A stretch of 64,000 bases of DNA from the NCBI RefSeq assembly GCF_027595985.1, contig NC_073308.1, positions 11,501,260-11,565,259 of the forward strand. Direction: 5' to 3'. The position numbers and the translations under genes are program-made. Within the stretch, counting starts at the first letter, position 1; the number at the start of each line of letters is the position of its first letter. Source of the stretch: Sorex araneus. Taxonomy: Eukaryota > Chordata > Mammalia > Eulipotyphla > Soricidae. Below the pieces are notes generated by a model. That model saw nothing but the letters and a program-made list of their open reading frames with translations. It made no database searches and was not told the DNA's origin. Positions 287 through 60,394 of this stretch are shown one piece after another.

Positions 287-530
287 ACTGGAGCAATGGC
301 ACAGCGGGTAGGATGTTTGCCTTGCACGCAGCCAACCCAGGTTCAATTCTTCCATCCCTCTAGGAGAGCTCGGCAAGCTACCAAGAGTATCCCACCCAGC
401 AGAGCCTGGCAAGCTACCCGTGATGTATTTGATATGCCAAAAACAGTAACAAGAAGTCTCACAATGGAGACGTTACTGGTGCCTGCTCGAGCAAATCGAT
501 GAGCAATGGGACAACAGTGCTATAGTGCTT
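287..530 (+). mobile_element. tRNA-derived SINE, RTE-tailed subclass (S2)
   Basis: The head has a box A-like region (TGGCACAGCGGG) and a box B-like GGTTCAATTC. The middle is specific to this subclass (GAGAGCTCGGCAAGCTACC, then TATGCCAAAAACAGTAAC). The 3' end reads GGAGACGTTACTGGTGCC and AAATCGATGAGCAA, which matches the 3' end of the RTE LINE at 30440-30494. It ends in a GTGCTATAGTGCT repeat rather than poly(A). Confidence 0.85.
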
Positions 531-16837: not shown

Positions 16838-17084
16838 GGGGCTGAAGCAATAGCACAGCAGGTAGGGCATTTGCCTTGCACATGGCCAACCTGAGTTCAA
16901 TTCCCCTGTCCCTCTCAGAGAGCCCAGCAAGCTACCGAGAGTATACCCCCCACACTGGGAGCCTGGCAAGCTCCCCGTGGCGTATTCGATTTGCCAAAAG
17001 CAGTAACAAGTCTCGCAATGGAGACATTACTGGTGCCCACTCGAGCAAATCAATGAACAACAGGATGACAGTGATACAGTGATA
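16838..17084 (+). mobile_element. SINE S2, RTE-tailed, near full length
   Basis: tRNA head, then CAGCAAGCTACCGAGAGTAT, GTATTCGATTTGCCAAAAGC and the RTE-derived end (GGAGACATTACTGGTGCCC, CAACAGGATGACAGTG). It ends GATACAGTGATA repeats, not poly(A). Confidence 0.92.
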
Positions 17085-20819: not shown

Positions 20820-20947
20820 TTATCACTGTATCACCATATCACTGTCATCCTGCTGCTCATCAATTTGCTCAAGCGGGCACCAGTAACATCTCCATTGTGA
20901 GACTTGTTGTTACTGTTTTTGGCACATTGAATATGCCACCGGGTTCT
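20820..20947 (-). mobile_element. SINE S2, 5'-truncated
   Basis: Antisense RTE-type tail only: CACTGTCATCCTGCTGCTCA, ATTTGCTCAAGCGGGCACC, AGTAACATCTCCATTGTGAG, TACTGTTTTTGGCACATTGA. The tRNA head is missing. Confidence 0.88.
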
Positions 20948-25401: not shown

Positions 25402-25632
25402 CACTGTATCACTGTCATCACTGTCATCCCATTGTTCATCGATTTGCTTGAGCGGGCACCAGTAACATCTCCATTCATCCAAGCCTGAGATTTTAGCAGC
25501 ATCTTCTTACTCTTTTTTCCCCAATGACTGGAGGCTCTTTCAGGGTCAGGGGAATGAGACCGTTATTGTTACTGTATTTGGCATATTGAATACGCCACAG
25601 GGAGTTCGCCAGACTCTTCCTGTGGGCGGGCA
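25402..25632 (-). mobile_element. Composite element C, 3' part (C1)
   Basis: Antisense RTE-type tail (CGATTTGCTTGAGCGGGCAC), followed by the C-specific insert (CAATGACTGGAGGCTCTTTC, AGGGTCAGGGGAATGAGACC), then the S2 middle (GGCATATTGAATACGCC). On the complement the tail still reads as WRCYWCPLKQIDEQWDD, close to the RTE C-terminus. Confidence 0.85.
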
Positions 25633-29461: not shown

Positions 29462-30505
29462 TGTTCAAACTCAGTATATCAGGATCCTCTGTGAGCTGTA
29501 TTCACCACCAGGATCTCAGCATTCTACAAAGAAGTGATCATTAACGTAAAGAGAGGGGTTGTGCAGGGTGATACCATTTTGCCAAAACTCTTTAGTGCCA
29601 TTTTCAAGACCATCATGTGACAACTGGAATGAGATGGAATGGGAGTGAAGATAGGCGGTCGGCAACTACATCACCTCCGCTTCGCTGATGACATCATTCT
29701 AATAACACCAAACGTTAGCCAAGCAGCACGAATGCTGATCAACTTCGACTGTGAGTGTGGAAAGATTGAACTGCAGCTGAATCTCACAAAGATAATGTTC
29801 ATGAGAAACAGACTAGTTCCTGATGTTCCATTTGCTCTCAACGGAATGAACATCTCCGAATGCAGCAGTTATGTGTACCTAGGTTGAGAACTCTACATGA
29901 CAAACAACCTGGCACCTGAGTTGTGCAGGAGGAAGAGAGCACCGTGGAATGCCTTCAAGAGCATCAAAGAAGTTAAGAGGACGAAGAACCTCCAGCTCTG
30001 GTCACATCTTTTTGACTCCGCCATTCTTCCTGCACTAACATACGCTTCAGAGACCTGGGCCCTATGAAAAAAGGATAAGAATGCTATTCGGGTATCCCAG
30101 AGAGGAATCAAAAGAGCTATGCTCGGAGTATCATGTTTCACTCAAGTGAGAGAAGGAATCCAGAGTTCTGACCTCTGTCAATGATTTAGAATCAGGGACA
30201 CTGTCTTGTTTGCCAAGGCATCGAAAATCTGATGGGTCGGACATGTAATGCAATTTGGAGACAACCACTGAACTAGAGCTGTTACCAACAGGATTCCACA
30301 GGATGTCAAAAGAACGCCTAGCCGCCCACCTATGAGATAGTCAGACTTTGTCAAGCCCCTGAATGAATGGTTTAAGGCTCTTCGTGTTCCTAGAGCCAGC
30401 AGACGCCATTGAGCAACACTAGGATGCAACAGGGACAAATGGAGACGGTACTGGCGCCCGCCCAAGCAAATCGATAAGCAACAGGATGACAAGTGATACA
30501 AGTTA
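29462..30505 (+). pseudogene. RTE-clade LINE, 3' fragment of reverse transcriptase
   Basis: Conceptual translation across several stops and at least one frameshift gives roughly 340 codons of a non-LTR reverse transcriptase. Seen in order: YIRILCELY, TTRISAFYKEV, a GVVQGDTILP segment, LHHLRFADDIILIT (the catalytic FADD box, about 29665-29706), LQLNLTKIMFMRN, SECSSYVYLG, LPALTYASETWAL, FTQVREGIQSSDL, WVGHVMQFGDN, RIPQDVKRTPSRPP and the C-terminal RDKWRRYWRPPKQIDKQQDD ending at about 30491. Order and motifs are those of RTE-clade elements. The endonuclease and 5' part are absent, so this is a 5'-truncated dead copy. After the stop comes GTGATACAAGTTATACAAG, a short-repeat tail rather than poly(A). 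The last ~55 bp match the 3' end of the S2 SINEs and C elements of this window. Confidence 0.88.
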
Positions 30506-30576
30506 TACAAGAACAATAGATTCTAAAATTTGAAAAAAATAATTGAGACAGATAATAAATTATTTAAGTAAATAAT

Positions 30577-30740
30577 TTTTGCTTTTTTGGGGGGGGCGAT
30601 GCACAGGGGTTACTCCTGGCTCTGCACTCAGGAATCACTCCTGACGGTGCTCAGGGGACCATATGGGATTCTGGGAATCGAACCCGGGTCGACCGCGTGC
30701 AAGGCAAACGCCCTACCCGCTGTGCTATCGCTCCAGCCCC
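30577..30740 (-). mobile_element. SINE S1, antisense arm of a second inverted pair
   Basis: Well-preserved head in antisense (GCCCTACCCGCTGTGCTATC, GCTCCAGCCCC). Flanking TTAAGTAAATAATTT and TTAAATAAATAATTT form a target duplication with one mismatch. Confidence 0.94.
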
Positions 30741-30761
30741 TTAAATAAATAATTTATTAAG

Positions 30762-31009
30762 TGGACTGGAGCAATAGCACAGCAGTAGGGCATTTGCCTT
30801 ACACGTGGCCAACCCGGGTTTGATTTCTCCTTCCCTCTCGAAGAGCCTGACAAGCTACTGAGAGTATCTCACCTGCACAGCAGAGCCTGGCAAGCTACCT
30901 GTGTCGTATTCGATATGCCAAAACCAGGAGCAACAAGTCTCAAGATGGAAACGTTACTGGTGTCCCCTTAAGCAAAATCGATGAGCAACAGGATGACAGT
31001 GACAGTGAC
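30762..31009 (+). mobile_element. SINE S2, RTE-tailed, near full length
   Basis: tRNA head, S2 middle (GACAAGCTACTGAGAGTATC, GTCGTATTCGATATGCC) and RTE-like end (CAACAGGATGACAGTGACAG). Perfect 11 bp target duplication AATTTATTAAG at 30751-30761 and 31010-31020. Confidence 0.94.
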
Positions 31010-31138
31010 AATTTATTAAGCAATTAATAATTTAAAATAATTACCTTTAAATATGGAGATAACCTCTCTTTTAGGATCAATTTGAATGATTGCAATCAAA
31101 GAGAAAATGTAAAAATAAAAGAGAAACACTTAAGCAGT

Positions 31139-38923: not shown

Positions 38924-39127
38924 TCACTGAATCACTGTTTCACTGTCATCCTGTTGTTCATCCATTATCTCGGGCAGGCACCAGTAACATCTTCATTTGT
39001 CCCTGTCAAGTGCTAGTGTAGCCCGATGGCATCTGCTCACTCCAGGAACACAAAGAGCGTGTTGTTGTTACTGTTTTGGGCATGTCAAATACGTCACGGG
39101 TAGCTTGCCAGGCTCTGCCATACAGGG
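38924..39127 (-). mobile_element. SINE S2 variant with an extended RTE tail
   Basis: Antisense. After the normal tail (GGGCAGGCACCAGTAACATC) it carries about 70 extra bp (39000-39065). Its complement translates as CVPGVSRCHRATLALDRDK, collinear with RVPRASRRH-ATL-RDK of the RTE at about 30388-30439. It then joins the S2 middle (ACTGTTTTGGGCATGTCAAA, GGTAGCTTGCCAGGCTCTGC). The head is missing. Confidence 0.85.
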
Positions 39128-39637: not shown

Positions 39638-40371
39638 GGGGCTGGAGAGCTAGTACAGCTGGTAAAGCACTTGCCTTATACATGGACAACCTGGATTCTA
39701 TCTCCAGCACCATATGTGATCCCATGAGCTCTGCCAGGAGTGACCCCTGAGCACAGAGCCAGGAGTAAGCCTTGAGTACTACTGGGTATCACTGTATTAC
39801 TGTCATCCCATTGTTTGTCGATTTACTCTAGCGGATACCAGTAATGTCTCTGTTACACTCAGCCCTGAGATTTTATCAGCCTATCCTTACTCGTCTTTCC
39901 CAATGATTGGAGGCTCTTTCAGGGTCAGGAGAATGAGACCTATCCTTACTGTTTTTGGCATATTGAATACGCCACAGGTAGCTTGCCAGGCTCTGCCATG
40001 CGGGCGGGATACTCTTGGTAGCTTGCCGGGCTCTCTGAGAGGTATGTACATATCTGTTGCTGTATTTTGGATATGAATACACTACCGGGAGCTTGCCAGG
40101 CTCTCCTGAGCGGGCAATGGACTCTCTCTAGCTTGTCAGGTTCTCCGAGAGGGAGAACTAGGCTATAAGATGTTCTGGGAGCTTGGTTTTAGAGTCTCTG
40201 GATGTTGGCTGTTGATGGAATTACACGGCACTGGGGGCAGTTTCTGGTTGTGACCACCTAGCTACTGGAAAATGGGGGATCTGGATGGAAGAGGTCCAGT
40301 CCCGATCTGAGCAGCCTTGGTATCCGAGCATACCACTGGGTATGGCCCAATAAACAAAAACAAAACAAAAC
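39638..40371 (+). mobile_element. SINE S1 split by composite element C
   Basis: Left part 39638-39789 (GGGGCTGGAGAGCTAGTACA ... GAGTACTACTGGGTAT). Right part 40344-40371 (GGCCCAATAAACAAAAAC). Outer target duplications AAAAATTCTGAGGAA (39623-39637) and AAAAGTTCTGAGGAA (40372-40386). Confidence 0.92.
39790..40330 (-). mobile_element. Composite element C, near full length (C2)
   Basis: A 541 bp antisense insertion inside a SINE, with target duplications TACTACTGGGTAT (39777-39789) and TACCACTGGGTAT (40331-40343). In sense order: a head shared with family B (GCTCAGATCGGGACTGGACC, GTGTAATTCCATCAACAGCC), two S2-middle-like repeats (GAGAGCCTGGCAAGCTCCC; GAGCCTGGCAAGCTACC), a CCTGAAAGAGCCTCCAATCA block, then the RTE-derived tail ending in GATGACAGTAATACAGTG. 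Non-coding; inferred to be RTE-mobilised. Confidence 0.85.
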
Positions 40372-47515: not shown

Positions 47516-47654
47516 TGCACACCCAGGGATAAAGGATGGACAAAAAATGGGGCACAAAGCTAGTACATGAGGTTTATCAAATGAGGTATCTGTTATACTA
47601 TTGGTTATTCAATAAGATAATTTTTAAAATTTATTTTATAAAGTAGTTCACAAT

Positions 47655-47901
47655 GGCTGGAGCAATAGCACAGCCGGTAGGGCGTTTGCCTTGCATGCGG
47701 CTGACCCAGGTTCGATTCCTCTGTCCCTCTCGGAGAGCCCGGCAAGCTACCGAGAGAATCCCGCCCGTACAGCAGAGCCTGACAACCTGCCCATGGTGTA
47801 TTCAATATGCCAAAAACAGTAACAACAAGTCTCACAATGGAGATGTTACTGGTGTTCGCTCGAGCAAATCGATAAACGGGATGACAGTGCTACAGTGCTA
47901 C
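47655..47901 (+). mobile_element. SINE S2, RTE-tailed, full length
   Basis: GCCTTGCATGCGGCTGACCC, GAGAGCCCGGCAAGCTACC, CAATATGCCAAAAACAGTA, GGAGATGTTACTGGTGTTCG, ending in GTGCTACAGTGCTACAG. Perfect 10 bp target duplication AGTTCACAAT at 47645-47654 and 47902-47911. Confidence 0.95.
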
Positions 47902-48197
47902 AGTTCACAATATTTGATTACATTTAATATTTGAACACCAACCCTACCACCATTACACCTTCCCATAACCATATTTCAGATATTTCCATCCTGAGCCTCA
48001 AGCCCTTCCCCAAAGCAGAACCAAAATAATTTATTTTTTATTGTTTGTTATGAAAAAAACGCTGAAAATGCTACAGTGGAGCATTTAAAAGAAAGAGTAT
48101 GAAGACTGTTGTATTTCACCCAACTCCATCTCTTCTATAAGAGATCACTAACAAGTTGTTAAATGTTGAGCCTTGTGTGCATGTGTGCATATACATA

Positions 48198-48706
48198 TAG
48201 CACTGTCATCCCGTTGTTCATCAATTTACTTGAGCAGGCACCAGTAATGTCTCTATTACAATCAGACCTGAGATTTTAGCAGCCTCTCCTTAGTCATCTT
48301 TCCCAACAATTGGAGGATTTTTCAGATTCAGGGGAATGAGACCTATCTTTACTGTTTTTGGCATATCAAATACACCACGGGTAGCTTGCCAGGCTCTGCC
48401 ATGTGGGTAATTGACTCTTGTAGCTTGTCAGGTTCCCAAAGACAAAGAACTAGGTTATTAGATTCAGGGAGCTTGGTTTTATAGGCTCTGGATGTTGGCC
48501 GTTGATGGGATTACACAGCACTGGGAGCAGTTTCTGGGTGTGACTGCCTAGCTACTAGAAAATGGGGGATATGGGTGGAAGAGGCCCAGTCCCGATCTGA
48601 GCAGCTTTGGAGATCTCACCCCCGGGTCCTGCACACCTGGGTTCCTCTGCCAGTTCCTTCATGCATGAGGCTCGTTTGAACTTGTGGAGAGGAGCCTTGA
48701 GCATGG
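48198..48706 (-). mobile_element. Composite element C, near full length (C3)
   Basis: Antisense RTE-type tail (CACTGTCATCCCGTTGTTCA, TACTTGAGCAGGCACCAGTA), GGAGGATTTTTCAGATTCAG block, S2 middle (GGGTAGCTTGCCAGGCTCTG), then the family-B-like head (GTTGGCCGTTGATGGGATTA, GTCCCGATCTGAGCAGCTTT). Parallel to C2. Confidence 0.85.
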
Positions 48707-53049: not shown

Positions 53050-54035
53050 AAACTAAATAGATATACTGGAAGAAAATATTTACCTACCTCTCATCTGATA
53101 AAGTGTTACTATCCAAGATGCAAAGCTTTACAAGCAAGAAAACAACTCCATTTTTAAGAATGGGGCAAGATGTGAACAGAAATTTCCTCAAAGAAGACAT
53201 ATAAATGGCTTTTTTTTTTTTGCTTGCTTTTTAGGTCACACCCCGTGACGCTCAGGGGTTACTCCTAGCTCTACACACAGGAATTACTCCTGGCAAATGA
53301 CCACGTGGGATGCGGGGATAGAACTCAGGTTAGCTGCATGTAAGGCAAATGGCCTCACCACTGTGCTATCACTCCAGTCTATGGATGGCTTTAAGACACA
53401 TGAAAATATGCTCTGTACCACTAATCACCAGAAAAATGCAAAACAATACAACTATGAGATATCACCTCACATCAAAGATACTGGTACACATCTAAAAGAA
53501 CAAAAACAAGCAGTGTCGGCATAGATGTGGAGAAATAGAAACCCTTATCTACTGCTGGTGGGATCAACTAGTTCAACCTTTTGGGAAACTAACTAGGAAA
53601 AAAAATAGAAATTGAGGTTCTATACGACCCAGCAACTATACTCCTTGGCAACCCCAAGGCCCGAAAACTCAATTCAGGAAGACATTTACACTCCTATGTT
53701 CTTTGCAGCACTGTTCCCAATATTCAGGTGTGGATATTATAAACAACCAGTGTCCAAGAACAGATAATCAGATAAAGAAACTATTCAACTCTAGGAAGAG
53801 GCAAAATCATGTAATCTGCTGCTACGTGGATTGATTTGAAGAGAGGGCCGGATGCTCATTAGTAGATACAAAGAAAGTAGGGGAATAACAAATGACGGGG
53901 AATAGGACATGTGGGGAGAACACTGGGACAGTGGTAGAGGGAAGCAGAGGGCGTGTGCTGGAGAGGGTTATGCACGAAATTTTACGTTAACAGCATTATA
54001 AACTACTGTGACTAAATAAAATTTAAAACAAATAT
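53050..54035 (+). mobile_element. L1 3' remnant, split by SINE, with 3' end
   Basis: AAGAATGGGGCAAGATGTGA, CCTCAAAGAAGACATATAAA, then after the SINE GATATCACCTCACATCAAAG, TACTGCTGGTGGGATCAAC, TTTGCAGCACTGTTCCC, ending TGACTAAATAAAATTTAAAA. The AATAAA and A-run mark a true 3' end. Confidence 0.88.
53211..53377 (-). mobile_element. SINE S1 inside L1
   Basis: T-tail, TTAGGTCACACCCCGTGACG, GGGGTTACTCCTAGCTCTAC, CCACTGTGCTATCACTCCAG. Flanks ATAAATGGCTTT and ATGGATGGCTTT are a degraded target duplication. Confidence 0.9.
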
Positions 54036-59967: not shown

Positions 59968-60185
59968 TATCACTGTAGCACTGTAGTACCGTTGTCCCGT
60001 TGTTCATCGATTTGCTCAAGCAGGCACCAGTAACGTCTTCATTGTGAGACTTGTTGTTACTGTTTTTTGCATATTGAATATGCCATGGGTAGCTTTCCAG
60101 GCTCTCTGAGAGGGACAAAGGAACCAAACCTGGGTCTGCCGCATGCAAGGCAAATGCCCTACTCGCTGTGCTATCGTTTCAGTCC
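59968..60185 (-). mobile_element. SINE S2 inside L1, internally deleted
   Basis: Antisense: GTTGTTCATCGATTTGCTCA, CAGGCACCAGTAACGTC, TTGCATATTGAATATGCC, then the tRNA head (GCAAATGCCCTACTCGCTGT). One of the two S2-middle repeats is missing. Target duplications AGACAGATGCA (59957-59967) and AGACAGACGCA (60186-60196). Confidence 0.94.
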
Positions 60186-60394
60186 AGACAGACGCACAGA
60201 TTATCAAAATATGTATAGTGGAATATTATTTGGTCATTAAAAAGAAAATCCTGCCATTTCCAACAACATGGTGGATTTTGATGGCATCGTTCTGAGTGAA
60301 ATAAGTCACACAGAGAATGACAAATACTGCATAATCCTCCTGACAAGTAGAACCTAAGTATCCAAGCACATGCAAACAAAGGTAGTTATTTAGG

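Follow-up and report, generated by a model that had tools for sequence, protein, structure and literature searches.

L1 mobilises nearly all SINEs of placental mammals. SINEs carrying tails of RTE-clade LINEs are known from ruminants (Bov-tA, Bov-A2), the springhare (Ped-1, Ped-2), the horse, Afrotheria and the opossum according to a survey of mammalian SINEs, which also tabulates a body derived from the RTE 5' end for Bov-A2 and RTESINE1 (PMC3747384). Bov-tA, counted at 381,457 copies in giraffe, combines a tRNA head with the 3' tail of Bov-B, an RTE-clade LINE which was itself horizontally acquired (PMC3747384, PMC8620236), and springhare Ped-2 carries the head of an ID SINE on an RTE-clade tail, its partner being BovB_Pca (PMC3747384). 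RTE-clade LINEs and their SINEs are described as inserting with a T stretch about 10 nt upstream and with a target site duplication (TSD) starting at T/A, the Tn-TA signature (PMC13295347). From shrews, Sor is described as a T-minus SINE (PMC11240701, PMC7279448), and RTE1_Sar as a LINE which the common shrew Sorex araneus has in common with strongylid nematodes by horizontal transfer, its authors favouring a nematode origin from its distribution, with copy ages that did not confirm the direction (PMC6542046). The words shrew and Sorex are absent from the main text of the SINE survey (PMC3747384), as is the word SINE from the main text of the RTE1_Sar paper (PMC6542046), and a literature search conducted mostly at the level of listings returned no shrew RTE-SINE pair recognised as such; Repbase, Dfam or SINEBase may name the SINE analysed here.

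RTE-tailed SINEs are already known, and the pair reported here, the SINE S2 and an RTE of Sorex araneus, adds a shrew pair with a LINE shared with nematodes and with a control SINE, S1, bearing the same head. S2 resembles Bov-tA in joining a tRNA head to the 3' tail of an RTE-clade LINE that is itself horizontally acquired, but differs in both parts, Bov-tA combining a tRNA-Glu head with Bov-B and S2 a head that reads tRNA-Ala, common to S1, with an RTE1_Sar-type LINE. Ped-2 is comparable in that a SINE head changed its partner as from S1 to S2, in another host and with another head and another LINE. The published account of RTE1_Sar covers the LINE alone, without a SINE.

The window, i.e. the whole stretch of 64,000 nucleotides analysed, contains an RTE copy (Table 1) encoding an RVT_1 domain (E 8.3e-8) and matching the Nippostrongylus protein P0002 at 66% over residues 209-541 (333 residues). 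Among the best 120 of 403 matches to its read-through translation, the relatives with a name are strongylid nematodes (the genera listed being Nippostrongylus, Heligmosomoides, Haemonchus, Necator, Ancylostoma and Angiostrongylus), Sorex fumeus and Sorex araneus, a few being unnamed, and Sorex is the only named mammal; the best 120 of 683 matches of the P0119 protein search also hold no named mammal except Sorex. Judged by protein similarity among the matches listed, the closest relatives outside the shrews are parasitic roundworms. The window copy is very probably RTE1_Sar, with the same host group and the same strongylid nematode relatives, a name that rests on host and relatives rather than on a comparison with the Repbase sequence. 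No TSD of score at least 8 flanks it, the best score being 6.

For sampling we drew 80 regions of 10 kb within coordinate bounds from 10 contigs of the genome (2.406 Gb, 65 contigs) and took them in sequence up to the 26th. The window together with the earliest 20 of these regions yielded a consensus of 239 bp for S2 (26 copies) and one of 142 bp for S1 (75 copies), and 11 RTE ends entered the RTE 3'-end alignment. Positions 183-236 of the S2 consensus equal the 3' end of the RTE consensus at 53 of 54 bases, with a Smith-Waterman score of 103 compared to a best score of 29 in 2000 dinucleotide shuffles, and, against the RTE, neither the S1 3' part nor the S2 body rises above background (scores 13 and 15; shuffle mean 14.7). 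The initial annotation had described a shared 3' end of ~55 bp at 80-85%, matching nine further places in the window, and had suggested aligning the consensus 3' ends; the alignment bears this out, and all nine places were recovered and joined by a tenth at 38931-39126 on the minus strand. The 57-base S2 tail consensus matches the window RTE (30438-30491, 89%) and these ten places at 83-93% by blast, nine of the ten being matched directly by the RTE copy at 79-86%. The RTE segment itself is 91% identical to the RTE tail consensus, and single copies show lower identity than the consensuses because they have decayed.

The shared part was further said to be coding in the LINE and peptide-like in SINE copies, which agrees with the consensus readings WRRYWCPLEQIDEQRDD for S2 and WRRYWRPLEQIDEQRDDK followed by a stop for the RTE. 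The RTE stop codon sits inside the first tail repeat, so that the shared signal is coding sequence. At their C-terminus nematode RTE proteins have this peptide or one resembling it (WRRYWRPLEQIDDQRDDR in P0002, WKNYWRPLDQFEDQRESR in Necator), and the C-terminal motif is reached by 43 of the 120 proteins listed (41 from named nematodes, one from Sorex fumeus and one unnamed). As the nematode proteins carry this peptide at their C-terminus, the comparison assigns the shared 3' end to the LINE, from which the SINE took it. Both tails fold into a similar hairpin, which is no better than in shuffled sequences (z -0.7 and 0.0), and a conserved 3' stem-loop was dropped on these grounds. A 51-base stretch of the S2 tail has 0 exact matches in the viral contigs searched.

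The terminal repeats separate the two elements. Of 63 shared-end matches, 11 carry ACAAGTGAT and are RTE copies, 41 carry ACAGTG[AC], the last 11 being either degenerate or unclassified; the 9-base unit ACAAGTGAT occurs in 11/11 RTE ends examined, and the S2 unit has 8 bases. The view that S2 copies end as RTE elements do thus holds insofar as both have short repeats instead of poly(A), but the units are related, differing by one base, and not identical. The claimed lack of poly(A) in S2 was found: an A6 run lies within 60 nt downstream of 1/23 full-length S2 copies, compared to 45/71 for S1. S2 tails come in CTACAGTG or ATACAGTG repeats (e.g. 47890-47901, 17074-17082), and these two types perhaps mark two subfamilies.

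Table 1. Features of the RTE, S2 and S1 elements in the window.
Position	Strand	Feature	Evidence or detail
29462..30505	+	RTE LINE copy, decayed, 5'-truncated: C-terminal part of the ORF and tail	Pfam RVT_1
30438..30494	+	Segment common to RTE and S2; coding in RTE (WRRYW...KQQDDK)	consensus comparison
287..519	+	S2 copy	
16839..17082	+	S2 copy, tail GTGATACAGTGA
20837..20942	-	S2 copy, 5'-truncated
25409..25617	-	S2 copy, 5'-truncated
30564-30578 / 30741-30755		TSD of S1 copy 30591..30740	14/15 positions equal
30591..30740	-	S1 SINE (probably SOR), same tRNA head as S2, A-rich tail
30751..30761	+	5' TSD of S2 copy 30762..31009: AATTTATTAAG
30762..31009	+	S2 copy, full length, tail GTGACAGTGAC (GTGACA), without poly(A)
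31010..31020	+	3' TSD of S2 copy 30762..31009, directly adjoining the tail
38931..39126	-	S2L (long-tail S2 variant): S2 body and some 120 bp from the RTE 3' end, S2-type tail
39799..40154	-	S2 sequence, either a broken copy or two that overlap	tail 39850-39799; body pieces 40042-39949, 40154-40065
47655..47901	+	S2 copy, tail GTGCTACAGTGCTAC, TSD AGTTCACAAT on both sides	TSD 47645-47654, 47902-47911
48201..48435	-	S2 copy, 5'-truncated
59968..60186	-	S2 copy, internal deletion	imperfect TSD TGC[GA]TCTGTCT, score 7 (below threshold)

S1 and S2 have identical consensus heads (63/63 bases), in which putative boxes A and B of the internal promoter of a tRNA-like head can be recognised by eye. ARAGORN makes five calls in the window, namely tRNA-Ala(TGC) at 47658 (S2), 46538 and 62851 (both S1), and Val and Thr for the S1 heads at 53305 and 59699. 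S1 fits the description of Sor and is probably SOR, an assignment for which host, abundance and poly(A) tails speak rather than a comparison with the Sor sequence. S1-like copies at 72-75% identity (27608, 36048, 38498 and similar ones in the window) form an older S1 layer, and one random 10-kb region, L021, stands out among 20 regions with 21 S1-specific matches, the runner-up having 10. S1 and S2 insertions stand back to back at 30564-31020, their targets having five bases in common, which places an L1-type S1 (15-bp duplication) compactly beside an RTE-type S2 (11-bp duplication).

K2P divergences span 0.027-0.145 for S2 (26 copies), 0.025-0.346 for S1 (84 copies) and 0.012-0.183 for the RTE (11 copies, seven of them search hits to the window copy, which biases this range towards that copy). 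The S1 span encloses that of S2, so S1 activity apparently preceded, accompanied and outlasted that of S2. The S2 values lie within the RTE range, and on these divergences S2 activity would fit the RTE's time. We infer that the S2 head came from the S1 lineage.

The marks left at insertion sites were compared for 57 S2 copies with a 3' end from about 355 kb (68 rows minus 11 RTE copies recognised by tail unit), of which the window contributes 10, the 26 random regions 43 and other fetched loci 4; S2 occupies about 3% of the sampled DNA (8434/260000 bases). A TSD of score at least 8 was found for 13 of the 55 S2 copies with flanks compared to 3/275 in a control with swapped flanks, a clear TSD being absent in 42/55. 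These 13 duplications measure 8-14 bp, with T at -1 in 11/13, A or T at +1 in 12/13, TTT at -14..-7 in 7/13 and an AA start in 2/13, and none of these 13 copies has a tail of five or more A. S1, with TSDs of score at least 9 in 50/128 copies (control 14/640; 9-21 bp), shows the L1 pattern: an A5+ tail in 46/50, an AA start in 37/50, T at -1 in 21/50 and TTT in 5/50. The differences between the two SINEs are significant for TTT (Fisher p 0.0015), AA start (0.00019), T at -1 (0.011), A tails (2e-10) and TSD length (p 0.0002). RTE copies have TSDs of score at least 9 in 4/10 cases, of 9-12 bp and with T at -1 in 4/4 (control 0/90 at score at least 9 and 6/90 at score 8), and the 6/10 copies without a TSD of score 9 include that of the window. 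S2 hence carries the Tn-TA signature in a small sample (n=13) on a T-rich background, T occupying 25/65 positions at -20..-16 compared to 38/65 at -12..-8; as the flanks are T-rich further out too, part of the upstream T signal is background. The L1-type signature, poly(A) and TT|AAAA-like sites, is found in S1 and is lacking in S2.

These data support a model according to which S2, as a composite SINE with an RTE1_Sar-type tail, was spread by the RTE machinery and not by L1, a reading that we hold with high confidence from sequence comparisons and that was already put forward in the initial annotation, the nematode-shared type of the LINE and the head common to S1 and S2 being added here; 3' end, tails and TSD pattern (n=13 S2 copies) all agree with it. 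S2 consists of the S1-identical tRNA head, a body of about 115 bp, the last 54 RTE bases and short tail repeats. Its RNA would presumably be an RNA polymerase III product transcribed from the head, whose 3' end may be recognised in trans by the RTE reverse transcriptase. The RTE protein would cut beside a T, in many cases with a T stretch lying upstream, and priming at the tail repeat would result in duplications of 8-14 bp without poly(A). S1, lacking the RTE tail, would be moved by L1 via poly(A). One tRNA head would thus have been spread by two LINE machineries, and as the RTE type is published as horizontally transferred between strongylid nematodes and the shrew, probably with nematode origin, a mammalian SINE would have exploited a nematode-type machine.

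That L1 moved S2 as well, the RTE-like end being a passenger acquired once, would agree with the general role of L1 for placental SINEs and with the same-head S1 being L1-type; S2 tails without A runs (0/13), an RTE end kept almost unchanged in the consensus, and TSDs whose length, initial bases and upstream T stretch set them apart from those of S1 make this very improbable. Less remote, though still unlikely, is a mover closely related to the RTE at 29462 but of another subfamily with an 8-base tail unit. The 9-base unit in every RTE end examined, set against the 8 bases in S2, speaks for such a relative, as does the presence of older, divergent RTE copies (L019 and L025, K2P about 0.18), but the 8-base unit itself occurs in 0/11 RTE ends examined (seven of which are targeted search hits), the consensus match leaves scant room for divergence, and a change of one base would suffice to explain the difference in a SINE tail, which is prone to slippage.

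The similarity taken alone would allow the shared segment to be of SINE origin and acquired by the RTE from S2, but the segment forms the C-terminal coding end of strongylid nematode RTE proteins, and we regard this direction as extremely improbable. A match by chance or through a simple repeat can practically be dismissed given its score far above the shuffle maximum and the same end in all 57 S2 copies.

Three old copies, with long tails or headless, may hint at the route by which S2 was assembled. S2L (38931-39126) combines the S2 body with roughly 120 bp from the RTE end, yet has an S2-type tail, and a second long-tail copy, L022:7608-7801, is 77% identical to it and crosses the same junction, only about its last 93 bp aligning to the RTE consensus. 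Further upstream this locus (L022:7463-7801) has a stretch, X (L022:7463-7560), in place of the tRNA head, then body and RTE tail. X recurs at L031:9248-9592, where X and body are inverted beside the same kind of RTE end, an arrangement which by analogy looks like a 5' inversion during target-primed copying. L1 twin-priming yields comparable inverted 5' parts, but the end here is of RTE type. For the S2 body in relation to the RTE 5' end, the upstream stretches of two loci, L029 and L030, were inspected, at which the RTE copies are 5'-truncated; the S2 copy directly upstream of the RTE at L030 inserted separately and bears a TSD of its own.

A tentative scenario, which we consider possible but slightly less probable than its being wrong, is a stepwise hijack: the LINE entered shrews via parasitic nematodes, an RTE-tailed, nonautonomous headless element arose (the type seen in L022 and, 5'-inverted, in L031), its body received the head of the L1-spread SINE in exchange, with roughly 60 bp preceding the shared end being lost, and S2 then multiplied by means of the nematode-type machinery until it made up roughly 3% of the genome sampled, its twin staying with L1.

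Two SINEs with the same 63-base head and with differing tails, TSD lengths and targets point to the 3' part as choosing the LINE, and with the 54-base shared stretch being LINE coding sequence a recognition region is easy to propose. If the stepwise reading were true, S1 and S2 would be a pair provided by nature, alike in the head and unlike in tail and mover. The published transfer between nematodes and shrews also gains a consequence beyond LINE copies, namely a SINE family, amounting to about 3% of the sampled DNA, that apparently spread by that machinery.
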